Below, one piece after another: positions 9,435-34,303 of a stretch of DNA of 36,101 nucleotides. Every line of letters starts with the position of its first letter. Position 1 is the first letter of the stretch. The notes under the pieces were generated by a model. That model was not told the DNA's origin. It did not search any database and saw nothing but the letters and a program-made list of their open reading frames with translations. The translations under genes were made by a program, and so were the position numbers. The stretch is from NCBI GenBank assembly GCA_022770365.1, contig JALEHU010000116.1:1-36101 (forward strand), given 5' to 3'. Origin of the DNA: Blautia sp. (GTDB lineage Bacteria; Bacillota; Clostridia; Lachnospirales; Lachnospiraceae).

Positions 9435-10715
9435 TTATTTATTTCTGTAAATGATGTCATTTCTTCCAGGTCCGTTGGAAATCATCGTGATCGGGAAGCC
9501 GATCTTTTCTTCCACAAATTCGATGTATTTGCGGCAGTTCTCCGGAAGATCTTCGTAGTTCTTGATTCCGCGGATATCGGTCTTCCAGCCAGGGAGTACT
9601 TCCAGAACCGGTTTTGCTTTTTCCAGAAGGCCGGTGGTCGGGAAATCTGTGGTCACTTTGCCGTCGATCTCGTATCCTGTACAAACAGGGATCTCATCCA
9701 GATATCCCAGTACATCCAGCACTGTGAAAGCAACATCTGTGGTTCCCTGCATACGGCAGCCATACTTGGAAGCAACACAATCGAACCATCCCATACGTCT
9801 CGGGCGTCCTGTGGTTGCACCGTATTCTCCGCCGTCTCCGCCTCTTCTGCGAAGCTCATCTGCTTCCTCGCCAAAGATTTCGGAAACAAAAGCACCTGCT
9901 CCGACTGCACTGGAGTAAGCCTTGCATACAGTAACAATTTTCTTAATCTCGTATGGAGGCACGCCTGCACCGATAGCACCATAAGCAGCCAGTGTAGAAG
10001 AAGAAGTAACCATCGGATAAATTCCGTGGTCCGGATCCTTCAGTGAACCAAGCTGTCCCTCAAGAAGAATCTGCTTGCCTTCTTTCAGCGCGTTCCACAG
10101 ATAAAGAGATACATCTCCTACATATGGCTCAACCATTTTCTTATATTCCATAAGTTCTTTCATCAGTTCATCCGGATCCAGAAGAGGTTTGTGATACAGA
10201 TGCTCCAGAAGAATATTCTTGGTCTCACATACGCGGCCGAGTTTCTCCCGGAGAGCTTCCTCATCAAAGAGTTCGCTTACCTGGAAGCCAATCTTGGCAT
10301 ATTTGTCAGAATAGAACGGGGCAATACCGGATTTGGTAGAACCAAAGGACTTGCCGGCCAAACGTTCTTCCTCATACTGGTCAAACAGAATGTGGTACGG
10401 CATTACCATCTGCGCTCTGTCAGAGATCATAATCTTCGGAGCCGGCACGCCTCTGCTGACAACTTCATTATATTCCTTGAAAAACACCGGGATATTCAGT
10501 GCCACGCCATTTCCGATGATACTTGTGGTGTGATCATAGAACACACCGGACGGGAGTGTATGAAGGGCAAATTTGCCATAATCATTGACAATGGTATGGC
10601 CTGCATTGGCACCTCCCTGAAATCTTACGATAATATCTGCTTCCTCGGCGAGCATATCGGTAATCTTGCCTTTTCCCTCGTCTCCCCAGTTTGCTCCAAC
10701 TACTGCTGTGATCAT
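9435..10715 (-). CDS. purA: Adenylosuccinate synthase
   Basis: Joins IMP and aspartate with GTP hydrolysis to make adenylosuccinate, the first step of the AMP branch. At 426 residues it is full length for the family. Visible signatures: GANWGDEGKGKITD near the N-terminus with the catalytic aspartate, QGGANAGHTIV with the catalytic histidine, GSTKSGIAPFYSDK in place of the more usual GTTxxGIGPxYxDK, GQLGSLKDPDHGIYPMVTSS, GATTGRPRRMGWFD and the C-terminal NGPGRNDIIY. The start MITAVV follows GAGGAGGAAAG; an in-frame longer version reads back through that ribosome site and is rejected. It lies 106 nt downstream of purB with no terminator between them, so the two genes are likely co-transcribed. 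Confidence 0.97.
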   Translation of the reverse strand: MITAVVGANWGDEGKGKITDMLAEEADIIVRFQGGANAGHTIVNDYGKFALHTLPSGVFYDHTTSIIGNGVALNIPVFFKEYNEVVSRGVPAPKIMISDRAQMVMPYHILFDQYEEERLAGKSFGSTKSGIAPFYSDKYAKIGFQVSELFDEEALREKLGRVCETKNILLEHLYHKPLLDPDELMKELMEYKKMVEPYVGDVSLYLWNALKEGKQILLEGQLGSLKDPDHGIYPMVTSSSTLAAYGAIGAGVPPYEIKKIVTVCKAYSSAVGAGAFVSEIFGEEADELRRRGGDGGEYGATTGRPRRMGWFDCVASKYGCRMQGTTDVAFTVLDVLGYLDEIPVCTGYEIDGKVTTDFPTTGLLEKAKPVLEVLPGWKTDIRGIKNYEDLPENCRKYIEFVEEKIGFPITMISNGPGRNDIIYRNK

Positions 10716-10799
10716 AACACTTTCTTCCTCCTCGTGTGTCAATTACTGTTTTTACAGATATACAAATATTTCTGCTGGACTGCTTTGATTTCAATGACC

Positions 10800-10836
10800 T
10801 ATACGTTGATTTCCGTATTTATTATACGTTGATTTC
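10800..10836. repeat. Direct repeat across the purB stop codon
   Basis: TATACGTTGATTTC occurs at 10800-10813 and again at 10823-10836, a 23-bp period. The second copy contains the last purB codons and stop; the first lies just past the gene. It looks like a short tandem duplication of the 3' end, out of frame. Confidence 0.85.
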
Positions 10837-12255
10837 TGCCTTCACACCAAGCATATCTTTATGTGCTTCAAGCACAGGTCCCACAACTTTGTTAAGAAAT
10901 GCCTCTGTCTGTTCTTTGGCGCGTCCTACATATTTAGTCGGATCCATAGTCTTCTGCAGTTCTTCCAGAGTCAGATTGAATGCAGGGTCTGCAGCGATCA
11001 GTTCCAGAAGGTTATTGTCCTTACCTTCCACCTTCACATTGCGTCCTGCTTCCATGGAAAGCTCACGGATGCGCTCATGCAGTTCCTGACGGTCACCGCC
11101 TGCTTTTACTGCATCCATCATGATGTTCTCGGTAGCCATAAACGGCAGTTCGGACATCAGGCGTTTCTCAATAACCTTCGGATATACTACCAGACCGTCT
11201 ACCACATTCAGGCAGAGATCCAGAATACCGTCAATGGCAAGGAAGCCCTCCGGAATGCTCAGGCGCTTGTTGGCAGAATCATCCAGTGTTCTCTCAAACC
11301 ACTGTGTGGCAGATGTGATCGCCGGATTCAATGCGTCGATCATCACATATCTGGAAAGGGAAGCAATACGCTCGCTTCTCATTGGATTTCTCTTATATGC
11401 CATTGCAGAGGAACCGATCTGTGATTTTTCAAACGGTTCTTCCACTTCCTTCAGATGCTGAAGAAGGCGGATGTCATTGGACATTTTATGTGCGCTTGCG
11501 GCAATACCTGCAAGCACGTTCAGCACACGGGTATCCACCTTGCGGGAATAGGTCTGACCGGATACCGGATAGCACTCCTTGAATCCCATCTTCTCTGCGA
11601 TCATCGGATCGATCTTGTCGATGGTCTCCTGGTCACCGTCAAACAGTTCCAGGAAGCTTGCCTGTGTACCTGTGGTTCCCTTGGAACCGAGAAGCTTCAT
11701 TGTGCTGAGCACATATTCAAGGTCTTCCAGATCCAGAAGGAATTCCTGAGTCCAGAGTGTGGCACGCTTGCCTACGGTCGTCGGCTGTGCCGGCTGGAAA
11801 TGGGTAAATGCCAGTGTTGGCTGTGCTTTGTATTTATCAGCAAACTGAGACAGCTCTGCAATAACGTTCACCAGTTTCTTGCGGACCAGTTTCAGCGCCT
11901 CTGTCATTACGATAATATCAGTATTGTCTCCTACATAGCAGGAGGTTGCTCCCAGATGGATGATTCCTTTGGCTTTTGGGCACTGTACGCCGTATGCGTA
12001 CACATGAGACATTACATCATGGCGTACCTGACGTTCGCGTTCTTTGGCTACGTCATAGTTAATGTCATCTGCGTGTGCTTTCAGTTCATCAATCTGCTCC
12101 TGGGTAATATTAAGGCCCAGTTCTTTTTCTGTTTCTGCAAGGGCGATCCATAATTTCCTCCAGGTACGGAATTTCATATCCGGGGAAAAGATGTACTGCA
12201 TTTCCCTGCTTGCATAACGTTCTGATAAAGGACTTACATATCTGTCTGTACTCAT
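10822..12255 (-). CDS. purB: Adenylosuccinate lyase
   Basis: A homotetrameric fumarase-superfamily enzyme that removes fumarate from SAICAR and from adenylosuccinate in purine synthesis. The 477-residue protein has the superfamily signature as GSSAMAYKRNPMRSE, with the flexible catalytic loop serines. The first conserved region is LGATSCYVGDNTD, and the second histidine region is LAFTHFQPAQPTTVGKRA. The start MSTDRYVSPL follows AGGAG at 7-nt spacing; a GTG two codons earlier is less likely. A promoter lies at 12302-12330. The gene heads a purB-purA unit, which supplies both AMP-branch steps together. The last codons and stop are part of a 14-nt direct repeat. Confidence 0.97.
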   Translation of the reverse strand: MSTDRYVSPLSERYASREMQYIFSPDMKFRTWRKLWIALAETEKELGLNITQEQIDELKAHADDINYDVAKERERQVRHDVMSHVYAYGVQCPKAKGIIHLGATSCYVGDNTDIIVMTEALKLVRKKLVNVIAELSQFADKYKAQPTLAFTHFQPAQPTTVGKRATLWTQEFLLDLEDLEYVLSTMKLLGSKGTTGTQASFLELFDGDQETIDKIDPMIAEKMGFKECYPVSGQTYSRKVDTRVLNVLAGIAASAHKMSNDIRLLQHLKEVEEPFEKSQIGSSAMAYKRNPMRSERIASLSRYVMIDALNPAITSATQWFERTLDDSANKRLSIPEGFLAIDGILDLCLNVVDGLVVYPKVIEKRLMSELPFMATENIMMDAVKAGGDRQELHERIRELSMEAGRNVKVEGKDNNLLELIAADPAFNLTLEELQKTMDPTKYVGRAKEQTEAFLNKVVGPVLEAHKDMLGVKAEINV

Positions 12256-12301
12256 CTTCACTCTCCTGATCTCATGTAGTATAATGCTTAATTACGTAGA
12301 A

Positions 12302-14931: not shown

Positions 14932-15714
14932 TCATGATCCTGTACTTCGATGGTATTCTCTGGTAAATTTTTCCAGAAGTTCATCGATATGCTGGGAATA
15001 CACCTGCTTCTCAGGTTTTTTCGCAAAATGATCCAGCGTATCCTTCACTTCCCGGCGTATATCCTCTCCCGCATTCAGTTCTGTCAGCCTGCTCTCATAT
15101 TCAATAGGCGTACGGATACTGCGGAAAGCGAGAAGATAACACTTCAGTGCAGACCGGTCATGTCCCTGTTCATATGCCTTCCAGAAACTCTCTACTGCTT
15201 TTTCCATCTGAAACAGATAGCTGTAGGCACAGCCCAGATTATGGTAAATGCTTTCCGTCAGACCTTCTCTGGCTGTTTCCAGTTCTTCCCGTTCCAGAAG
15301 CTTCTGATAAACGCGGATGGCATTGACAAACATCCCGTTTTCCACCAGGGCATCCCCTTTCTCTTTTTCACGGACTGCAGACGGCTGTGCATTCAGCTTC
15401 TGAAGCTGGCTGTTCAGGACACGAAGTTCTTCATAACTCAGATAATTGATTTCCTTGAAAATCGGATACAGAATATCTTCCGCAGCCGCAAACTTGCCCA
15501 GATTCGGGCGGATCTTCGCAGCCAGTTTCGGAAGATCCAGTTCCTCCGAAATCCAGCTGCACAGTCCTTCATTGACAATCGTATCATCCACCAGATATAG
15601 ATTATGATAAAGATAGTAACATAATTCCTCAATGCTGTAGATGTTTGTGCTGATATTTTCGATATAATATGGTGTTTCTGCCTTTTTTGTCTGGCATAAA
15701 ATAAATCCGCTCAT
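14932..15714 (-). CDS. TPR-like helical protein, third gene of the DUF5717/DUF5716 operon
   Basis: A 260-residue soluble protein with no known function. The N-terminal third begins MSGFILCQTKKAETPYYIE and contains ISTNIYSIEELCYYLYHNLYLVDD, a pattern I associate with proteins found next to DUF5716/DUF5717 genes. Residues from about 150 to 215 look like tetratricopeptide helices (GDALVENGMFVNAIRVYQKLL, IYHNLGCAYSYLFQMEKAVESFWKAYEQG), followed by a helical tail. No catalytic motif is visible. The start was placed after GAGGGGGAC; it begins 13 nt beyond the stop of the ATPase-fold gene, so the three genes are one operon. A scaffold or adaptor role is an inference from the helical repeats. Confidence 0.85.
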   Translation of the reverse strand: MSGFILCQTKKAETPYYIENISTNIYSIEELCYYLYHNLYLVDDTIVNEGLCSWISEELDLPKLAAKIRPNLGKFAAAEDILYPIFKEINYLSYEELRVLNSQLQKLNAQPSAVREKEKGDALVENGMFVNAIRVYQKLLEREELETAREGLTESIYHNLGCAYSYLFQMEKAVESFWKAYEQGHDRSALKCYLLAFRSIRTPIEYESRLTELNAGEDIRREVKDTLDHFAKKPEKQVYSQHIDELLEKFTREYHRSTGS

Positions 15715-15727
15715 TTTCGTCCCCCTC

Positions 15728-16975
15728 TTACCATGCGGCTGTTTCTTTCCAGACTTTGCCGCTGCTCGGGAACATATCGCCAAAGCCCATGTCTCTCACC
15801 GTGATCTCACATTCTTTCGGAGAAACATATTTCAGCTCCAAATGAAGTCTGGTAGTCTTATTCGGTCTTTTGGGAATACCGGGAAGGCTCATGGACACAC
15901 GGCGTTTTTCCGATTTATCCATGGTTGCTACTGTAAATACAAGTTCTTCCATATCATCCAGGATCAGCTCACACTGAGCTTTGCAGTCATACCAGTTATT
16001 GCCGGCCTCAATGAGAGAGTAATATGCAGGAGACCCCATCACTCTCATTTCCATGCCCACATCTGCCAGTACCAGTGCCTCGCTCATGTAGCGGTAACTC
16101 TTCAGGTTCTTTTTCTCCAGACGTTCCACTGCTGCCGCGCAGGCCCCTTTTGCAAAAAGATTATTTCCGTAAAACACTTTGCGTTTCTGATAACACAGAG
16201 CTTTTACAGACTGTTTCGCCCATTCTGTGTCAAATCCATTGCCGGTGATCTGGATACTGGAGTAAAGTTCTGTACCAAGAGTCTTCTGAATAAACTGACT
16301 GAAATCTGAATCTCTTGCCTCCTTCTCCTCACTGAGACTGGATTCCCGGGGTTCTTCCAGCCTGACCAGAACCGGTCTGGTGCCAGAAGTCATGGACATT
16401 CTGCGGAAAACAACCTTCTCCGGAGCAAATTCATACCACGCCACGCTCCTGTTCCATGTATCTCTCTTCTGGGAAAGCATGTAATAATAAAAGCTTTCGC
16501 CATAATCCATCAGCATGAATTTTTCCTCCGGAAATCCCAGATGGGCACATGCCTTCTGGAAATTCTTCACTCTCCCGGGTGTAAGGGCGCGTGTTGTAAT
16601 GACCATGCATTTGGTATTTTTTACAATATCCAGAATACCCAGGAATTTCAGTATTCCCTTCAGGAAGATTGACAGAAATTCCCATGGTTCATGCTCTTCT
16701 CCCGCCATCTGAACAGGGTCCGTACTGTCGGACAATTCATAGAGATTATCCAGCATGATCCCGCCCTTTTCTCTGGCAAAATACTCTGCCTCCAGACCGA
16801 TGCAGTAATCTTCCTGTTCGATTCTCCGGCAAATACAGCTCGGGGCCTCATACTGGCTGCTCCCCACCTTCATACTGATGGATCTCGCTTCATCCGCCTT
16901 CCGGTCGTAATAACAAATCTGGGAAACCTTTTCCCCAAAATCAATTCCAATCATCAAGTCACGAATTTCGTTCAT
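15728..16975 (-). CDS. Actin/Hsp70-like ATPase-fold protein, DUF5716 family
   Basis: A 415-residue protein I recognise as a DUF5716-type family member; no function is established. The N-terminus reads LMIGIDFGEKVSQICYYD, which matches the first phosphate-binding loop of the actin/Hsp70/sugar-kinase superfamily. CMVITTRALTPGRVKNF and LADVGMEMRVMGSP may be later strand-loop elements of that fold. There is no signal peptide or membrane segment. The C-terminal ~100 residues (LVFTVATMDKSEKRRVSMSLPGIP, TTRLHLELKYVSPKECEITVRDMGFG) look like a beta-rich domain. Its ATG lies 17 nt inside the end of the upstream large gene, so the two are translationally coupled and probably act together, perhaps as ATPase and scaffold. 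Confidence 0.82.
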   Translation of the reverse strand: MNEIRDLMIGIDFGEKVSQICYYDRKADEARSISMKVGSSQYEAPSCICRRIEQEDYCIGLEAEYFAREKGGIMLDNLYELSDSTDPVQMAGEEHEPWEFLSIFLKGILKFLGILDIVKNTKCMVITTRALTPGRVKNFQKACAHLGFPEEKFMLMDYGESFYYYMLSQKRDTWNRSVAWYEFAPEKVVFRRMSMTSGTRPVLVRLEEPRESSLSEEKEARDSDFSQFIQKTLGTELYSSIQITGNGFDTEWAKQSVKALCYQKRKVFYGNNLFAKGACAAAVERLEKKNLKSYRYMSEALVLADVGMEMRVMGSPAYYSLIEAGNNWYDCKAQCELILDDMEELVFTVATMDKSEKRRVSMSLPGIPKRPNKTTRLHLELKYVSPKECEITVRDMGFGDMFPSSGKVWKETAAW

Positions 16976-19900
16976 CTTCCGTTTCCTTTTCTATGGTAAA
17001 CATTTCTTTTACGTATTGTTCCTGACGGAGATACTGCTTCATTCTTCTGGAAACTTCCTGCTCTTTGTCCAGTTTTCTTGCAGACAGCATCTGGTTCAGG
17101 AGCTGATATTTGCTCATGGGAGTTCCGTCCACGCGGTTCATTGCAAGAACCCGCTCTGTGGTCTTATGGACTTTTCCGCCCTGCTCAATGCGGAAATAAT
17201 AATGCAGAGTTTCTCCATAAAACAAAGTAAAAGTCTTGGTAAAGATTCCCTCATAAACATTTTTCAGCGGTTCACTCTTATATTCTTTCCCGATTCCAAG
17301 TCCTGTATCCAGCGCATAAAATAAAGTCACCTTCGCCTCCGGGCTGGTATGATATTCCACATACGTCTTGTCATCCAGCTGATACGGGCTCAGAAGCTCC
17401 GGAGAAAGCTTCCTGTAAAAGGCAAATGCCCTGCCTTCTTTTACACATTCCTTAAGAAGTACTTTTTCCATTTCCACATGTCTGCTGTCTGTGACTTTTT
17501 CTTTTGCAAGTGCTTTGAGAAGAGCCATTCGGCAGACTTCATTCACAGGCCATTTCCGCTCATATGCATTTTCCAGGCATTCCCTGACAAACGGGCTCAT
17601 GGGATATTCCCTGACAAACACACCATAGGAGAGCTGCGTCAGATATGCTCCGATGATTCGTTCCTTGCCTGCCTGCTTCACATAAGAGCGCAGGATGTCT
17701 TCTCCTTCTTTGCGGTAATCTGACGTAAACATCAGAATGCCCAGAATCTTTTCTTCCAGATCATAGGTATCCATATCAAAGCCTCTTGCGCTTTTCCAGA
17801 TGGCAATCAGTTCATCTGCGGGTCCAAATCGGTACTGCATCAGATAATGGAGGATCACTTCATCGTATTTGCCTGCACGGTATACTTCACTGGAAAGTGC
17901 CAGAAGCTCCTCGTCTTCTGCCATTTCACTGCGCAGGATCATCCGGCTGGTGAGTTTCAGAAGACTGCCCCAGTCCACGCCTTCGTATCCGAATTCCTGA
18001 ATCACATACATTGCTTTTGCAAACATCCGTCTGGAAACCAGAACTTCCAGAAGTGTCCTGCGGTCCACGATGGTGTATTCCCGCAGATCCAGCGCCTGAA
18101 GATAATCATCCAGGTTTTCTTCCTGTGCATGAGCCGCGAAATAATCCAGAATCTTTCTGCGGGTATGCTTCCTGTAAGTGCCTGTATAAACATCAGACTC
18201 TGTCAGATACTGGAAAAGCTCAAGATTTTCACGGTTCAGTTCTGCATTTTCACAATAATGAAGAAGGACGCCCGGCTCTCTCACGCCTTTATCAAGGACG
18301 CGGGAAAGAAGTTCCCGTTCATCGATCATCTTTGTAACATTATAATCTACGGTAGATGCATAGCGGCGCTGCTTCTCATCCTGGAACAGGATCACGGCAT
18401 CTTCTGTATAGATTTTCGGATATGCCACACCCTGTACACAGGGATAAGCTTCCTCTCTTGCCATCTGGCTGTGGCGGACAATCACCTGCCGAACCTTTTT
18501 ATCGTCGCAGTATAACCGGCAGGTAAACATGAGACGGGCTGCCGCCTGGGCTTCCTTCGCATCTGACGGATCCATGCAGAATTCCTGATAGAGAGCCGCA
18601 TAGTTCTCATTGATCCTGCCTTCTGCCAGTTTCCGGAGAGCAAATTTACGGATATTTTCACGATAGCTCTCATACACACCCGGTTCTTTATCTCTGTACG
18701 CAATGACATTGGCGTAGAGATAAGCTTTTCTGGAATCTCCAAGTGTATTATCATTATATGTAAAATACATCAGGAGTGTCTTGGGCAGTTCTCTCTGATA
18801 GGAAGTGTCCATGGTCTCCACATAGTATTCATAAAGTCTGGTAAGTCTCAGTCCACGCTCCACTGCAAGGGAAAACCAGCGGAAATACTCCGGTTTTCTG
18901 GGATTCTCGATCATGATATATCTGCAGATGGCTTCCAGAGTGTCATCTGTGGGAAATGCCTCATATCCCATGGCAAGGGCTCTGTAAAGGCTTCTGTTGA
19001 AGGTCTTCTCATATCCGGACAGATAGGAAAGGCGCATCACAAGCTCCTCTGTGAGGAGGCCATTTTTGCCTGCAAAAAGAAATACCTGCACCCAGAATCT
19101 GCTGATCCGGTGAAGAAGAGACATATCCGAACTGATATAATTCCATGCTTCCAGATAAAGCAGCGGGCTTCTGCATCCCCGGTCAAACAGCTCTTCCATG
19201 AGAAAAACTGCTTTGGACGGTGTACGGCGATAAGCGCTGTCCATCTGAAGCTGCACCCACATCAGGATCAAACTGTCTTCTTTTTGCATATAGAAATTCT
19301 GAATCTTTCGCAGAGCCTGTACGCTGTCGCGATATATTCCCGTGAGACTGCAAAGATACAGATAAACACCGGCAAATTCCAGATCATCTCTGGAATAGGA
19401 TTTGTCACGGAACTGTTTCAGAATCCCGGCAGCTACCGGATCATTCCCTTCTTTGTGCAAAAGGTATGCCTCCAGCATCTGATATTCCGGATAACAGCAG
19501 CCGGCTTCACGAAGCTGGTTCAGTTCAAAGCGGGCACTTCCTGCCCAGGTCTTAAAATCCATGCTGCCGCAGCGGTATTCCATGTAATCACGCATCAGAG
19601 AAAGTTTATGTTTTTTCTCCACTGCACTGATATCAACGTTTGCTTTGACTTCTCTGGAAGCGATAACAGGATAAATCAGCTCCTGATAAGGGCTTTTGAT
19701 CACGATCTGCCCAAATTGTCTGCCTTTTCCCAGTTTCTCTTTGTGAATCACATATTCTGCCTGATAACTGCTTCCGATAAAATCTTCATCCGTCACCACA
19801 TGATGTTCCACTTCCAGGAAATCTCCTCTTGCTTCAATATCAAGACGAAGATGTCCCCATCCTGTCTTTTGAATATCAAACGATTCCTGAACGGATTCGC

Positions 19901-20516
19901 TGACTTCATAAAATTCTCCGCCGCTCTGTTTCAGAGAAATGGAAACCGGTTCCTTGTATCCCATGCTGATAAGGAATTCCTCCAGATGCTGGTAAGTCAC
20001 AGGCTGGACGGAAAGTCCCGCATACAGAGCTTTTTCTTTCAGGCTTCGGTTCTCCATGATTCCGGAAAAGGATTTATCTTTAAACAGACGGTATGCTTCG
20101 CGGAAATCCTTACGGGCGATCAGCTGGAACGCTTCCGGGTCATGAAGTTCTCCTGCAGAGCTTCTGATTTCTTCTTTTTCTGTTTCAATGGAAAATGGAA
20201 GCCTGTACTCTCCGATGTTCGTTGTAAAACACAGCCAGCCGCTTAAGGATTCTCCAGGCTTCATGCCTGTGGCATCTACACCGTAAGGCAGACAGATGGT
20301 TGTTCCTGAAAACCTGCCGAGCCCGGATACCAGTCTCCTGCTGGAAGAGGTCACGTATCCGCGGATGCGCTCGTTATTCTCTGTTCCGAAATAAAGATCG
20401 CCCCGTATGGTCTCTCCTGCTTTCAGTGTGACGGAAATCCTGTCCTGTGAAAACAGAAGTGCAGGATTTTCATATTCAAATTTTCCACTTAACAATTGTT
20501 CTATCTTTTTCTTCAA
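16959..20516 (-). CDS. Large multidomain repeat protein, DUF5717 family
   Basis: An 1185-residue protein I recognise as DUF5717-type, with no assigned function. It starts with TTG, 7 nt after AAGGGG, and no nearby ATG offers an alternative. Residues 1-115 and about 195-300 look beta-rich (SVTLKAGETIRGDLYFGTE, GFITSSSRRL-like turns; HLRLDIEARGDFLEVEHHVV). From about 300 to 1020 the chain is helical with TPR/HEAT-like character (DDLEFAGVYLYLCSLTGIYRDS, AIWKSARGFDMDTYDLEEK). A last beta-rich segment (VEYHTSPEAKVTLFYALDTG, TFTLFYGETLHYYFRIE) precedes a basic tail. No signal peptide or membrane helix is present, so it is probably cytoplasmic. It heads the operon and overlaps the ATPase-fold gene. 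It may be a large scaffold; that is inference. Confidence 0.85.
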   Translation of the reverse strand: MKKKIEQLLSGKFEYENPALLFSQDRISVTLKAGETIRGDLYFGTENNERIRGYVTSSSRRLVSGLGRFSGTTICLPYGVDATGMKPGESLSGWLCFTTNIGEYRLPFSIETEKEEIRSSAGELHDPEAFQLIARKDFREAYRLFKDKSFSGIMENRSLKEKALYAGLSVQPVTYQHLEEFLISMGYKEPVSISLKQSGGEFYEVSESVQESFDIQKTGWGHLRLDIEARGDFLEVEHHVVTDEDFIGSSYQAEYVIHKEKLGKGRQFGQIVIKSPYQELIYPVIASREVKANVDISAVEKKHKLSLMRDYMEYRCGSMDFKTWAGSARFELNQLREAGCCYPEYQMLEAYLLHKEGNDPVAAGILKQFRDKSYSRDDLEFAGVYLYLCSLTGIYRDSVQALRKIQNFYMQKEDSLILMWVQLQMDSAYRRTPSKAVFLMEELFDRGCRSPLLYLEAWNYISSDMSLLHRISRFWVQVFLFAGKNGLLTEELVMRLSYLSGYEKTFNRSLYRALAMGYEAFPTDDTLEAICRYIMIENPRKPEYFRWFSLAVERGLRLTRLYEYYVETMDTSYQRELPKTLLMYFTYNDNTLGDSRKAYLYANVIAYRDKEPGVYESYRENIRKFALRKLAEGRINENYAALYQEFCMDPSDAKEAQAAARLMFTCRLYCDDKKVRQVIVRHSQMAREEAYPCVQGVAYPKIYTEDAVILFQDEKQRRYASTVDYNVTKMIDERELLSRVLDKGVREPGVLLHYCENAELNRENLELFQYLTESDVYTGTYRKHTRRKILDYFAAHAQEENLDDYLQALDLREYTIVDRRTLLEVLVSRRMFAKAMYVIQEFGYEGVDWGSLLKLTSRMILRSEMAEDEELLALSSEVYRAGKYDEVILHYLMQYRFGPADELIAIWKSARGFDMDTYDLEEKILGILMFTSDYRKEGEDILRSYVKQAGKERIIGAYLTQLSYGVFVREYPMSPFVRECLENAYERKWPVNEVCRMALLKALAKEKVTDSRHVEMEKVLLKECVKEGRAFAFYRKLSPELLSPYQLDDKTYVEYHTSPEAKVTLFYALDTGLGIGKEYKSEPLKNVYEGIFTKTFTLFYGETLHYYFRIEQGGKVHKTTERVLAMNRVDGTPMSKYQLLNQMLSARKLDKEQEVSRRMKQYLRQEQYVKEMFTIEKETEDERNS

Positions 20517-20634
20517 AGTAGTTCCCCTTATCGTTCTGAAATGTGACGGTCAGTGTTCCCTGAAAAGAAAATGTTTCAACTTATTAATCCGGCTTTCCGA
20601 CACATTCCGCTAATATTCTTTGCTAATAGCAACA

Positions 20635-20663
20635 ATTATACATCACAACTTCCGCCAGTGCAA
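20635..20663 (-). promoter_or_regulatory. Promoter of the DUF5717/DUF5716 operon
   Basis: On the minus strand TTGCAC (20663-20658), a 17-nt spacer and TATAAT (20640-20635). The leader before the TTG start is about 110 nt. With the terminator at 20708-20739 this separates the operon from the sugar-kinase unit upstream. Confidence 0.85.
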
Positions 20664-20707: not shown

Positions 20708-20739
20708 TGCCGTATGGAGAAAACAACTCTATACGGCAC
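20708..20739 (-). terminator. Intrinsic terminator after the ribokinase-like gene
   Basis: On the minus strand TGCCGTATAGAG pairs with CTCCATACGGCA (one mismatch) and is followed by TTTTGTTTT. It ends the epimerase/EAL/kinase transcript; the plus strand also has a T-run, so it may work both ways. Confidence 0.9.
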
Positions 20740-24652: not shown

Positions 24653-26902
24653 TCAGTCAAACATCATATAATCCATATAAAATTCATTAAAATCCTTATC
24701 CGTTGAAAGACTTACTTCCTCAGATATTTCAACCAGATGTTTCAGTTTGCTTTCTCCCTCAGGGTCTCTTAAATACCCGGCGGCTCCGGCAAGAGAACTG
24801 TTTCCCACTGCCTCGATCCGGTCACCCAGTTCCGGAGGAAGCAGACCGATGGCAATGGCTTTGTTTTTGTTAAGCTTATAGCCAAATCCTCCAGCCAGAT
24901 ATACTTTTGCAATCTGGTCCTTACTGATTCCGTAACGAAGGATCAGAGTTTCCGCTCCTGCCCGGACTGCAGCCTTTGCAAGCTGAATCTCACGGACATC
25001 TTTTCTGGTAAATGCAATTGTTCTTCCGTCCTCAGTTTCTGCCAGAGGGAATCCATCGTCAAAGTAATCTTCATCCAGCAGTCCTGAATCTTCCACCAGC
25101 TCGTTTTTTACCAGTTCCATAACCGTCTCCACCACACCGGTTCCGCAGATGCCAACCGGGGGCTGATTCAGAATGGTTTTTACCGAAGCTTTTTTATCAT
25201 GGATTTCCACAGAGCAGATTGCTCCTGCCACGCTTCCGGTTCCCCAGGTGATATTACCGCCCTCAAAAGCCGGTCCTGCCGCTGTGGAGGTTACCAAGAT
25301 CCTGTCTTTATTCCCGATGGCCATTTCTCCGTTGGTGCCAAGATCCACCAGAAGACAGACTTCTTCACTCCTGTCAAATCCGCAGGCATATAATCCGGAC
25401 ACAATATCACCGCCCACATAGGTGGAAATTCCCGGAAGAAGATTTACTTCTGCACTGCAGTCTGTATGATCTGGATCTGTACTGTCTGAGTATGTAACAT
25501 GCTCTTCTGTTCCCGGTTCTGTGCCGCCCAGTATTTCTTCATAGCTGCCTTTTATCAGATCGATGTTCACTGGAGTAAACGGGTAAACGCCCAGCGTATC
25601 GCAGTCGTATCCCATAAGCAGGTGTCCCATGGTAGTATTTCCTGCTATGGAGATTCTTTTAATTTTTTCCATTGGGATTTGTGCTTCTATTGCGAGCTGA
25701 CGGATTCCCCTTCTCAGGATCTGACGGATACAGTTTTTCAGTTCTTCTTTTTTGCCGTCCACAGATGCCTGGATTCGTGAAATCACATCGGCGCCATATG
25801 CACGCTGTTCATTAATAAAGGTCACGGTGTGCAGTCTTTTCCCGCTGTCGCAGCCAAGAAGCTCCATGGCAATGGTAGTTGTTCCGATATCTGTCGCAAT
25901 CTCATAACCACTGTCGGTCTCCGATGATCGATTTTCCTCCTCATCGTCAGTATCGCCCAGGATTTCAAATTCTGATTCATCATTCAGTGTAAACGCAACT
26001 TTCAGATCCTCCGTCGGATACAGTCTGCAGGATAATCTCCAGCCGGCTTCCAGCTGTTCCCTGGAAAAAGCCTTTTTGTCTTCCTGAGTGATAAATGCAT
26101 CTCCTTCCAGAACCTGCACACCACATTTGCCGCACCTGCCTTTGCCTCCGCAGGGTGCGCTGAGATAGAATCCTTCTCTGACCAGCGCATCCATCAGAAA
26201 TTCGCCCTCTTTCATCACAATGCGGCGCTTTTTTGTTCCCCGGATGACTTCCACTTCTGTCTTTGGAATGTTACGCATTTTGCAGTGGATGTTCGGACAT
26301 TTTCTGCAGTCATGATGAGCCTTAAATACATTCTCATCCTCCGTCAGTATGAATACCTGACAGGATGTTTTTACCGGATCAAACATAAAGCCGCTGCTGA
26401 TCCCGATCCCGAATCTCTTCTCAAGTTCCAGATGCTTCCAGGCAATATGCTGTGATTCCATGGAAATATCATGAGGTGCCTCCAGGCGCTGCAGAATGCC
26501 CATTTTATGCTCTGCGCATACCTCCTTCAATTTTTCCATCATGCGTCCTTCCAGGGAAAATAAGATATCATCTGCAATCGCGTCGCAGAGCATTCCTTTG
26601 ACATAATCCCCTTCATGAAATGCATTGGTGCTGCACTTTCTGATTCCGTCACCGATGCTTAGTACCGCATAGATCACAGGCGTACCTGCCTTATATTTTT
26701 TTGTCTCAATGGATTTCGGCAATATGCCGAATCCCAGAATTCCCACCGGCTCTGCCAGCCCCAGCATATCATCACGGATTTCCTCGTATTCATCTGCAAC
26801 TTCCTCATACACAGGACTGTCTTCATAGCAGTCCATGGCTTTCAGTACGGCAGCTTTGTCAAGCTTCGGCACAAGATGATCTATTTCATAAAAGTTCTCC
26901 AT
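24653..26902 (-). CDS. RACo-like ferredoxin/ASKHA corrinoid-protein activator
   Basis: A 749-residue protein of the reductive activator of corrinoid proteins type, which uses ATP to drive low-potential electron transfer to an inactive Co(II) corrinoid. Residues 1-195 resemble the methionine-synthase activation region (YAVLSIGDGIRKCSTNAFHEGDY, KGMLCDAIADDILFSLEGR). A cysteine cluster follows (C199, C202, C207 in HDCRKCPNIHC). Next is a plant-type [2Fe-2S] ferredoxin domain with C251, C257, C260 and C292 (APCGGKGRCGKCGV). From about 335 comes the ASKHA ATPase with YEIATDIGTTTIAMEL, ISIAGNTTMGHLLMG, LLVDLGTNGEMAIGN and VYLAGGFGYKLN. No corrinoid protein gene is in the window, so its target is elsewhere. 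An acidic linker (DTDDEEENRSSETD) joins the ferredoxin and ATPase parts. AGGAGG precedes the ATG. Confidence 0.88.
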   Translation of the reverse strand: MENFYEIDHLVPKLDKAAVLKAMDCYEDSPVYEEVADEYEEIRDDMLGLAEPVGILGFGILPKSIETKKYKAGTPVIYAVLSIGDGIRKCSTNAFHEGDYVKGMLCDAIADDILFSLEGRMMEKLKEVCAEHKMGILQRLEAPHDISMESQHIAWKHLELEKRFGIGISSGFMFDPVKTSCQVFILTEDENVFKAHHDCRKCPNIHCKMRNIPKTEVEVIRGTKKRRIVMKEGEFLMDALVREGFYLSAPCGGKGRCGKCGVQVLEGDAFITQEDKKAFSREQLEAGWRLSCRLYPTEDLKVAFTLNDESEFEILGDTDDEEENRSSETDSGYEIATDIGTTTIAMELLGCDSGKRLHTVTFINEQRAYGADVISRIQASVDGKKEELKNCIRQILRRGIRQLAIEAQIPMEKIKRISIAGNTTMGHLLMGYDCDTLGVYPFTPVNIDLIKGSYEEILGGTEPGTEEHVTYSDSTDPDHTDCSAEVNLLPGISTYVGGDIVSGLYACGFDRSEEVCLLVDLGTNGEMAIGNKDRILVTSTAAGPAFEGGNITWGTGSVAGAICSVEIHDKKASVKTILNQPPVGICGTGVVETVMELVKNELVEDSGLLDEDYFDDGFPLAETEDGRTIAFTRKDVREIQLAKAAVRAGAETLILRYGISKDQIAKVYLAGGFGYKLNKNKAIAIGLLPPELGDRIEAVGNSSLAGAAGYLRDPEGESKLKHLVEISEEVSLSTDKDFNEFYMDYMMFD

Positions 26903-27163: not shown

Positions 27164-27999
27164 CTACCTCTTCTCGTTAAAATCCTTAATCGCCCGGAAC
27201 ATTGCCATCATATTTTCTGCTGACGTCTGTCCCTGGATATTATGTACGGTGTTGAATACGAAACCGCCGCCTTTATTAAAGAGCTCAAGACGTTCTGTAA
27301 CTTCTGCATATACTTCTTCCGGAGTTCCGAACGGCAGTGTCTTCTGCGTATCCACGCCTCCGCCCCAGAAAGTAAATTTGTCTCCCCACTGTTCCTTCAG
27401 CATATGGCCGTCCATTCCATATGCTGAAAGCTGAACAGGATTCAGGATATCCACTCCCATTTCATAGAAGTCCTGAAGGAATGTGGTTACTGCTCCGCAA
27501 CTATGATAGAATGTTTTCCAGTTCGTATTTTCGTGTACCCAGTCATTGATTTTCTTATAATACGGTTTATAAAATTCACGGAAACTGTCAAGTGACATAA
27601 ACGGGCCATTCTGTGTGCCGAAATCAGTTCCGGATATGATAATTGCCTGAATCTTATCGCCGCATGCCTGTTTAAAGAGTTTTGCATTTTCAAGAGCGAT
27701 TTCTGTCTGATATTCATAAATTTCATGAATATAGTCCGGACAGATCTTATGAGCCATCATGAAATCCGGAATATCACGGATCCCCTTTGGTTCTTTTACG
27801 TTCGGTCCCGGAATCAGTGCAAAATCACCCAGTCCTGCAAGCGCGCCTTGATTTTTCTTTCTTCCAGTCCAAGGGCTGTCCTCAGTTTTGCCAGTGCATT
27901 GGCATTAATGCCGGTAATGGCTGTGGAACCCATATCTACAACTACTTTTTCAGGTTCCCGATGATTCAGGGTTTCAATTAATCTTTCTCTTGATGTCAA
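27164..27999 (-). pseudogene. Broken UroD-family (MtaA/HemE-like) methyltransferase
   Basis: The N-terminal piece (TTG at 27999 behind AAGGAGG) reads TSRERLIETLNHREPEKV and STAITGINANALAKLRTALGL, then ends early at 27814. The C-terminal piece continues in another frame from about 27835, reading AGLGDFALIPGPNVKEPKGI, then KIQAIIISGTDFGTQNGPF, WKTFYHSCGAV and FWGGGVDTQKTLPFGTPEEV, and stops at 27164. Intact relatives are about 350-390 residues; here only about 275 codons remain, so roughly 100 residues between the pieces are missing as well as the frame. The family moves methyl groups between corrinoid proteins and substrates; the HxC ligand pair (HSC) is kept. A palindromic operator and a LacI-type regulator gene remain upstream. 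An assembly error is possible but would have to remove about 300 bp. Confidence 0.85.
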
Positions 28000-31823: not shown

Positions 31824-32750
31824 TTATTTCGCCATTTCAAAACCTGCAATCTTGTCCGGATACCATTTTGTTGCCTCTTTGATACTTTTCGCGGCAGGAA
31901 GTCCGTTTCCCGCAAGAACTACGATTTCATTCAGGGCAGATACTTCATTTTCGTATGGAGTCAGTTTGAATAAATTTCCCACACAGTCCAGAAGCCAGTT
32001 TCTTCCTTCCAAACGCACAAAGCCTTTCACACGATAGGTATCCTCCAGAAACATTTCCACAAATTTCTCCAGTTCATATACCGTGAATGTATCTTTTATC
32101 TTCAAAATATAGCTTCTCAGAGTGATGTCCCGCGTCTGCATTTCAGGTTTCTCTGCTGACAGCATGGGCTTTTTCATTTCCTCCAGCCACTGGTCACGGA
32201 TCTCTCCGAAGCTTGTCTCAAAAACAGGGATATCCGGCCGGTGATCGTGAACGGTTTCCCGGACAGATTTCAGTTCTTCCTCCGTTGCCAGATCCGTTTT
32301 GTTGATCAGGATTATATCGCTGATGCTGATCTGTTTTTTGACAACTGTGGCTGTTTTATATACTTTATGGAATCGCCTGGCATCCAGAAGACAGATGCTT
32401 CCCATATATTCCAGCCCGGGGAATTTTTCCTCCTGCGCCATGATTTTACGCACATTGGTGGGATTTGACAGGCCGGATGCTTCGATGATGATGACATCAG
32501 GCTTCGTAATAAGAGCCTTCTGAAGCACTTCCTCAAATTTGTCCAGTCTGCAGGAACAGAAAATTGAACCGTTATTGATCTCATCCAGCACGGTACCAAG
32601 CTCTTTCAGAAGCTGTCCGTCGATACCTTCTTTGCCGTATTCATTCACGATAATATGCATCCTCTGCCCTTCAAAAAGCCGGATGAAATTTTTAAGAAAA
32701 GTTGTTTTTCCCGCTCCCAGAAAACCGGTAACCAGATATAATTTTGACAT
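31824..32750 (-). CDS. CobW/COG0523-type GTP-binding metallochaperone
   Basis: A 308-residue GTPase of the CobW/YjiA/ZNG group, which delivers zinc or cobalt to client proteins. Walker A is TGFLGAGKTTF (G9-T16), switch region IIVNEYGKEGIDGQ, Walker B region VIIIEASGLSNP, and NKxD is INKTDL (150-153). The usual metal motif GCxCC is altered here to GSIFCSC (61-67), so only C65 and C67 remain as thiols. The C-terminal domain is short (FVRLEGRNWLLDCVGNLFKLTPYE). The promoter at 32866-32894 overlaps a TTAGACnnnGTCTAA palindrome. The following DUF5714-like and PadR-like genes and the upstream UroD-thioredoxin gene suggest it loads metal onto one of them. Confidence 0.9.
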   Translation of the reverse strand: MSKLYLVTGFLGAGKTTFLKNFIRLFEGQRMHIIVNEYGKEGIDGQLLKELGTVLDEINNGSIFCSCRLDKFEEVLQKALITKPDVIIIEASGLSNPTNVRKIMAQEEKFPGLEYMGSICLLDARRFHKVYKTATVVKKQISISDIILINKTDLATEEELKSVRETVHDHRPDIPVFETSFGEIRDQWLEEMKKPMLSAEKPEMQTRDITLRSYILKIKDTFTVYELEKFVEMFLEDTYRVKGFVRLEGRNWLLDCVGNLFKLTPYENEVSALNEIVVLAGNGLPAAKSIKEATKWYPDKIAGFEMAK

Positions 32751-32941: not shown

Positions 32942-34303
32942 TTACAATACTTCGTTGATTGCAGCCTCAAGTTCCTCTTTTGCCGGAACGATGGAGCTGA
33001 ATTTCAGTTTGCCGTTGATGTAGATAGACGGAAGATTCTTAACCCCCATCTTCTTGCATCTTGCAATGTTTTCTTTCTGAGTGAATTTGTACTCGATCAT
33101 ATCGATCTTATCCCCGAAGGTTGCCTTTGCTTCGTTAGCTGCACCCATCATGTAAGTACATGCTGCACAGGTAGCGGAATCCAGGGTAAATACTTCTACG
33201 AAAGGCTTGGTCAGATGTTCATAATCCGGAAGTTCAACCTCAATATCATCATCTGCAGCCACATAATTCTTCACCATTTCTCTTACTTCATCCGGCTGAG
33301 TTACTGCCTGAACCGCACCGATGGTATTCTCAACAGGAACTGCATAAGGCATATCGCATCCCGGGGAAAGGATAAAGTTTCTCTTATCTTCCATGCTGTC
33401 CAGAAGATCGATTACATACTTCATGTTATCCTGCTGTGTTCCGTGAAGCATAATGGTTGTCAGAGGAATATTTCCGCCGATACAAACGTTATATTTGTCT
33501 GTAATCTTCTTTGCAGCAAGAAGGTTGACATTTTCATCTACAGAAATAGCATCCGGTTTTGCCTGACACATCACTTCGATATTTCTGGTCGCATCGCCGC
33601 ATACAAAGAAGGAAGAATATGCTCCTTTTTCACGGATATGAGCAAACAGTTCCGTAAACGGTTTCATCATGAATTCTTCGAAATGACTGGAGGAGATCTG
33701 GGAAATCAGCGGGTCAACAACCGCGATCACATCCATACCTGCTTCAATATAATAATCTGCCATAGCCTTTGAAACCTTGCAGCAATAATCCAGGAAATCT
33801 TCTACTGCTTCCGGATCATCAAACATATCCATGAAGATATTATTTCCGCGAAGATGTGCTGAAAGAGTGAACGGTCCGCAGATCAGTCCATACAATGCAG
33901 TTTCATCACCGATAGACGCCTTTACTCTCTTCATTACATCCAGGATCATTGGAATACGTCCGTCTTCTTTTGTAGGAATGGTGCATTCACACGGTGTCAC
34001 CAGATCTTCATCATCTTCCATCGGATGTGCAGATACAGATGGCGGAGCATCATCAGCCCAGGTCAGCTCGCATCCCAGACATTCTGCTTCCACCTGCAGG
34101 TCAAAGATGACCGGAAGACCGGACGGCTTGTACATTTTATGTACTTCCATCAGTGCGTTGTAAAGATTATCGCCGTTGGAAAGTACGTCTTTTGCATTGC
34201 ATCCGATCAGCTGTCCTGCATGCACTCCTGCAAATGGTACCCATGCAACCTGCGGTGTTTCCTCGTGTCTTAATGTTGCTAAAATCAGTTCTTTTGGTGT
34301 CAT
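32942..34303 (-). CDS. UroD-family methyltransferase fused to a thioredoxin-like domain
   Basis: A 453-residue soluble protein. Residues 1-345 belong to the uroporphyrinogen decarboxylase superfamily branch of MtaA/CmuA-type methylcobamide methyltransferases (TPKELILATLRHEETPQVAW, ALYGLICGPFTLSAHLRG, YYIEAGMDVIAVVDPLIS, NFILSPGCDMPYAVPVENTIGAV). Methyltransferases of this group bind zinc through HxC...C; here C235 and C316 are in place but the His position is F233 (SFFVCGDAT). Residues 365-453 form a thioredoxin/glutaredoxin-like domain with a CxxC (C379, C382 in SATCAACTYM) and the cis-proline segment VKNLPSIYINGK. The fused domain may supply a thiol acceptor or redox control; that is inference. 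GAAAGGA precedes the ATG. A palindrome flanks each side of the gene. Confidence 0.87.
   Translation of the reverse strand: MTPKELILATLRHEETPQVAWVPFAGVHAGQLIGCNAKDVLSNGDNLYNALMEVHKMYKPSGLPVIFDLQVEAECLGCELTWADDAPPSVSAHPMEDDEDLVTPCECTIPTKEDGRIPMILDVMKRVKASIGDETALYGLICGPFTLSAHLRGNNIFMDMFDDPEAVEDFLDYCCKVSKAMADYYIEAGMDVIAVVDPLISQISSSHFEEFMMKPFTELFAHIREKGAYSSFFVCGDATRNIEVMCQAKPDAISVDENVNLLAAKKITDKYNVCIGGNIPLTTIMLHGTQQDNMKYVIDLLDSMEDKRNFILSPGCDMPYAVPVENTIGAVQAVTQPDEVREMVKNYVAADDDIEVELPDYEHLTKPFVEVFTLDSATCAACTYMMGAANEAKATFGDKIDMIEYKFTQKENIARCKKMGVKNLPSIYINGKLKFSSIVPAKEELEAAINEVL

Follow-up and report, generated by a model that had tools for sequence, protein, structure and literature searches.

What do three adjacent genes do that nearly every genus of a large family of gut bacteria keeps side by side? 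This question is raised by a 36,101-nucleotide stretch of DNA from Blautia sp. (Lachnospiraceae, Lachnospirales; assembly GCA_022770365.1, contig JALEHU010000116.1, positions 1 to 36,101), here called the window, in which genes A (16959-20516), B (15728-16975) and C (14932-15714) follow one another on the minus strand. A and B belong to DUF5717 and DUF5716, already known as Pfam family names only, for families of unknown function, and a literature search with scant coverage of subscription journals and preprints returned nothing on either family or on such an operon, apart from one paper listed for DUF5716 whose title shows no relation to it. From the evidence below, we consider it somewhat probable that the trio represents, in reduced form, the core of an Hsp70 machine with several subunits that is dedicated to one task in the Lachnospirales; B would serve in it as a fixed-state subunit comparable to Ssz1.

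All three genes are intact and lie where an earlier note, made from the sequence alone, had placed them. Gene A encodes 1185 amino acids from a TTG start, gene B 415 amino acids, and gene C 260 amino acids from an ATG at 15714 to an end at 14932; these sizes, the 17-nucleotide overlap of A with B (16959-16975, minus strand) and the 13-nucleotide gap between B and C (15715-15727, minus strand) were all confirmed. The family assignments also held, as A (DUF5717_N and DUF5717 domains) matches PF18984 (E 2.5e-261) and PF18983 (1e-99) and passes the DUF5717 cut-off, and B matches PF18980 (E 4e-105) and passes that of DUF5716. Ratios of nonsynonymous to synonymous substitution rates were 0.05-0.09 for A, B and C against the nearest relative (L031), indicating purifying selection and thus that all three genes are maintained as proteins.

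Structure and profile comparison assigned B an ASKHA fold of the Hsp70 type, with a nucleotide-binding domain (NBD) and a beta substrate-binding domain (SBD-beta) and with the lid absent, so that the actin/Hsp70-type fold proposed in the earlier note is present in the predicted structure. All of the best 50 Foldseek matches listed for the model were Hsp70-type proteins. Across the alignment of B proteins, SBD-beta columns are 94% filled and lid columns 9% filled, with a median of 13 residues after SBD-beta. In the window, the SBD-beta-like sandwich covers residues 300-415 (15731-16078, minus strand) and ends in a DxGFG motif that aligns with the end of the DnaK SBD-beta, and order-level relatives provide additional support for this domain. 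B has one hydrophobic segment (mean 1.93), at residues 100-118, which in the folded model coincides in part with a helix at 97-111. On these grounds B is classed, by prediction, as a lidless Hsp70 rather than a generic ASKHA ATPase.

Whether such a protein could still work as an ATPase was judged from four catalytic residues: the phosphate-1 Thr, Lys70, Glu171 and the phosphate-2 Thr. None of them is kept in 49 of 55 B proteins and one is kept in the other 6; by set, 21 of 23 and 28 of 32 proteins have none, and the remainder have one. The phosphate-1 loop site of the window protein (residues 10-19; 16919-16948, minus strand) keeps its Asp and Gly and has lost both Thr, so the ASKHA-like phosphate loop that had been read in the 415-residue protein is there by position, in degenerate form. 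Its adenosine-binding loop site (residues 245-252, GNGFDTEW; 16220-16243, minus strand) begins with an invariant Gly. Because the four-residue signature is missing, we class B as a degenerate Hsp70, or pseudo-Hsp70, and not as a working Hsp70 ATPase, and because the loss extends to nearly all B proteins, an ATP-driven machine is unlikely. The earlier picture, in which two repeat proteins clamp an ATPase, thus keeps its two repeat partners, with a predicted pseudo-ATPase Hsp70 in place of the enzyme. A cytoskeletal or polymer-building role for an ASKHA machine driven by ATP, one of several options raised in the earlier note, is scarcely credible and found no support. B has an ASKHA fold, and active paralogues described below have a secondary Pfam match to MreB_Mbl, but set against actin-like filament proteins (MreB, ParM) B carries an Hsp70-type SBD-beta and has Hsp70-type proteins as the best structural matches listed, and its ATPase motifs are lost.

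The partners are indeed repeat proteins, and no hydrophobic segment was found in either A or C, in agreement with the earlier description. The AlphaFold2 model of A (mean pLDDT 79.7, pTM 0.42) contains two PapD/ASH-like beta-sandwiches, the first of immunoglobulin (Ig)/PapD-like form (residues 20-112; 20181-20459) and the second at residues 192-286 (19659-19943), followed by a long alpha-solenoid (residues 296-1026, with a beta insert at 665-729; 17439-19631) and a C-terminal beta-sandwich (residues 1051-1125; 17142-17366), all on the minus strand. In most related families read, the solenoid region is a separate gene, A2. Protein C has a conserved N-terminal segment followed by tetratricopeptide repeats (TPR), whose matches fall slightly below the Pfam cut-off (best 24.9 vs 25.7 bits). 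Its orthologue in L056, a locus of another family, is a clear TPR protein (TPR_2, 2.2e-21), and judged from such orthologues C is a predicted TPR protein.

The trio was then followed through the Lachnospiraceae, meaning the window's family as grouped by the search tool, in 150 genomes that by the tool's tally represent 150 genera. A, B and C were each matched in 148 of them, and all three are missing from the other two (G441 and G445, 98-99% complete). The gene-neighbourhood survey that the earlier note had proposed came out in favour of a unit: A, B and C are consecutive, on the same contig and strand and within 1,500 bases, in 144 of the 148 genomes. In the four exceptions, either A (G385, G401, G411) or C (G435) lies on a different contig from B; G385 and G411 involve contig ends, and in G401 (contamination 5%) and G435 the separation seems genuine, as A and B are followed by further genes in these genomes. 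In G435 (L123, L124), B is followed by genes foreign to the trio, and C is located on a second contig beside a purB-like gene; an insertion or rearrangement is possible. Six genomes (L073-L078) have B and C fused in a single reading frame of 684-723 amino acids, which indicates that B and C belong together. The three genes are passed on jointly, as one unit.

Beyond the family, a class-level survey of 343 genomes matched both A and B in 16, every one from the window's family, with one further match to B below the cut-off; at order level, A was found in 108 of 216 genomes. Strong matches to A, B and C are confined to the order Lachnospirales at the sensitivity used. A profile of the A2 solenoid gave partial matches in another family of the class (G171:C99:62357-62842, E 2.3e-11; G205:C1:2865104-2865550, 3.4e-8), which may reflect solenoid likeness or distant kinship.

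The order-level relatives place the trio in a larger context. We read 27 loci outside the family, comprising 7 that matched among 16 order-mates and 20 picked for diversity from 77 matching order-mates. In 17 of these, A (mostly split as A1 and A2 outside the family) is followed by Hsp70a, GrpE, B, Hsp70b, Hsp70vWA and C, in that order, with a split gene or extra short frame interrupting the plan in L053, L098, L115 and L116, and with gaps mostly below 50 nucleotides. L105 has the same plan by position, its A2, B and C being too diverged for a single-sequence search, and L054, L055, L057 and L058 are cut by contig ends. Five loci are reduced: L059 (A1-A2-B), L097 (A-B-C), L100 (no Hsp70b, vWA or C), L111 (no vWA or C) and L114 (A1-A2 only). 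The source of L097 (G628, 86% complete, contamination 5%) is listed in another family, and as its B falls within the Lachnospiraceae B proteins in the tree, this locus may be a binning error. A profile of C built without order-level rows matched C in 18 of the 27 loci (E 1.3e-55 to 9.9e-23).

Hsp70a, Hsp70b and Hsp70vWA of the larger operon have intact catalytic motifs, and in L056 all three are Pfam HSP70 proteins. By alignment, Hsp70a and Hsp70b stop soon after SBD-beta, and Hsp70vWA (L056:12595-14673) is an unusual fusion with a vWA domain after SBD-beta, where the lid would be. The operon GrpE proteins are 279-645 amino acids long, with the GrpE domain C-terminal in all 8 scanned and preceded by about 440-510 amino acids in 6 of them. 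Near the operon of one order-mate, genes at L054:233-2089 by eye resemble grpE and hrcA, hinting at a heat-shock context there. The trio would seem to be a reduced form of this bigger Hsp70-GrpE operon, with the direction set by parsimony. We regard as probable the fuller reading of an undescribed Lachnospirales chaperone machine. One operon would supply its four lidless Hsp70 paralogues (three with intact motifs and one ATPase-dead), a GrpE of its own, a scaffold of Ig and solenoid domains, a TPR protein and membrane anchors, and the dead paralogue would have the organising role. On this reading the Lachnospiraceae lost every engine and retained, as a core complex in nearly all genera, the dead subunit and the two proteins that hold it.

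The presence of GrpE bears on a different proposal, in which B, like Hsp110/Sse1, would be a diverged Hsp70 that serves the housekeeping DnaK as co-chaperone or exchange factor, and A and C would select the clients. Sse1 retains ATP binding and its helical part, whereas B is without the lid and most phosphate-loop residues; in addition, with GrpE beside it in the larger operon B would be redundant as an exchange factor, and we consider this proposal unlikely, though it is the strongest of the alternatives. The chaperone-machine reading also departs from a conventional DnaK-GrpE system. The fold of B, the active paralogues and GrpE are common to both, but no DnaK-type lid is present, three of the four operon paralogues ending after SBD-beta and the fourth having vWA there; the operon is without DnaJ, its GrpE domain mostly has a long N-terminal extension, and B is inactive as judged from its residues.

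The putative membrane anchors are proteins D and E. D is about 400 amino acids long; extended stretches that look helical flank its one or two hydrophobic segments, and its gene lies directly 3' of C in 14 of the 37 loci fetched. A D profile without order-level rows found D genes in five order-level loci (E 1.4e-41 to 1.4e-35), and the family survey gave matches in 64 of 150 genomes, of which G276 and G392 are weak and partial, leaving 62. E, a second membrane protein, is encoded 5' of A1 in eight order-level loci. In G385, G401 and G411 (L118, L120, L122), D and then a valS-like gene come after C, just as they do in L056 (valS likeness was tested for L056, L104 and L105 only), and this common order suggests that the position of the locus is old.

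Several points weigh against the reading of B as a static Hsp70 subunit of a reduced machine. The model of B is middling (pLDDT 71.9, pTM 0.66) and was built on seven sequences. The window protein has no Pfam HSP70 (PF00012) match at E 0.1; its L056 orthologue passes that cut-off (59.9 bits vs 20.6). For Lachnospiraceae-type B proteins, sets of which include named records of unchecked family (L031, L032, L033, L035, L036), the profile alone matches DnaK weakly (E 9.8e-5, first third), and NBD columns are just 72% filled. Many B proteins (17 of 23 and 26 of 32) have a Glu two columns away from that of Glu171, so an alignment shift could hide one catalytic residue, and motif loss predicts, and does not prove, a loss of hydrolysis. 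In addition, the phosphate-1 Asp is present in 29 of 32 and the adenosine-loop Gly in 32 of 32 Lachnospiraceae-type proteins. These two residues would suit a B that binds nucleotide without hydrolysing it, in a complex acting as a membrane sensor or assembly switch; D, with its hydrophobic hairpin between long helical parts, and E in the larger operons would also fit. Most phosphate contacts of B are lost, though, and clear-scoring D genes occur in just the 62 of 150 genera, which leaves such a switch improbable. D is missing from most genera and was not found in this genome by the family survey, a difficulty also for the chaperone-machine reading. As to history, the tree was a quick one: its branches are long, compositions deviate and the root was placed arbitrarily. 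The preference for reduction over expansion is therefore a matter of parsimony, not proof, and the five reduced loci are compatible with either direction. Finally, Pfam scans of the window trio and the L056 operon found no J-domain, in which they differ from the ribosome-associated complex (RAC) of Ssz1. The HPD string is absent from window A, B and C, from L056 A1, A2, Hsp70a, GrpE, B, Hsp70vWA, C and D, and from L055 E; L056 Hsp70b has it, with no J-domain match.

RAC nevertheless supplies the nearest model for what B may do. Ssz1 is described as binding but not hydrolysing ATP, having no lid and forming part of a fixed complex (PMC7083937). Both would be non-hydrolysing lidless Hsp70s, in the case of B as judged by sequence; Ssz1 binds ATP and partners the J-protein zuotin, whereas B has lost most phosphate loops and partners solenoid and TPR proteins, and RAC is eukaryotic and ribosome-bound, whereas the trio is not known to have a tie to ribosomes. 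By analogy, B may be static, staying in a single conformation without cycling and acting as a client-binding or scaffold subunit. A, through its solenoid and Ig domains, and C, through its TPRs, could hold B and would recruit a client or partner; a direct contact of C with B is suggested by the natural B-C fusions. Where present, D, as a two-helix coiled coil, may tie the complex to the membrane. In the ancestral form B probably stood among active Hsp70s served by GrpE, and in the Lachnospiraceae the ATP-driven step would be either gone or supplied by housekeeping DnaK and GrpE. This genome (85% complete) has one full-length DnaK match and one partial HSP70 match elsewhere.

A similar parts list comes from the GAP1-N2 systems, whose HSP70/GrpE paper is reportedly by Kaur et al. 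in 2020. The HSP70/GrpE theme of these systems (PMC7159879) is the closest published arrangement found: an Hsp70, GrpE, an incomplete, SBD-less Hsp70 and a beta-sandwich (FNIII) protein fused to DnaJ or TPR share one neighbourhood. The trio might accordingly be what remains of such a conflict, or defence, system, but those systems have GTPases, a J-domain and a patchy spread, whereas B keeps SBD-beta and the trio is near-universal in the family. No TRAFAC GTPase or GAP1 Pfam domain occurs in the operon genes scanned (flanking genes lay outside the scan), no GTPase, GAP1, DnaJ or effector domain was found in nine L056 operon genes or the scanned D, E and GrpE proteins, and PADLOC gave no convincing match. 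The trio is also under purifying selection and often near purB/purA or valS, whereas defence islands are patchy, and a defence remnant is very unlikely.

Lachnospiraceae rank with the most abundant bacteria in the human colon. A complex found in 148 of 150 sampled genera, and strongly in this order only at the sensitivity used, for which the literature search gave no described function, may well carry out some basic task of the cell that is specific to this lineage. The complex would also offer a bacterial parallel to Ssz1, in which an Hsp70 that lost its ATP cycle became a part almost never lost, and the larger operon of the sister families provides a comparison for testing the purpose of an inactive Hsp70.

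Upstream of A lies pfkB. The single promoter claimed for the trio was not borne out by the promoter scan, which gave 7 promoter-like sites vs 9.1 +/- 3.0 in shuffles, none of them upstream of A. A perfect TATAAT hexamer 5' of A (20635-20640, minus strand), read by eye and not among the scan sites, is a possible -10 box, but with its poor -35 this candidate promoter is suggestive only. Between pfkB and A, a terminator-like hairpin (20708-20738), to which no strand is assigned, was predicted for the plus strand, and a T-rich stretch follows it on the minus strand too.

On the other side, purA and purB (9435-12261) lie past an amino-acid ABC transporter that comes after the trio. Genes named by eye as purB-like, purA-like and valS-like stand near the trio in 14, 11 and 13 of the 37 loci. 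Elsewhere in the window, what looks like a corrinoid methyltransferase locus takes up 24653-26902, 27164-27760, 31824-32750 and 32942-34303. It consists of a RACo-like activator of corrinoid proteins that carries a 2Fe-2S domain, a pair of URO-D-type genes, the first of which spans profile positions 175-345 only and may be a fragment, and a CobW-type gene. A T-box leader (RF00230) was detected at 1645-1862 on the minus strand, with 100.8 bits vs a cut-off of 93.

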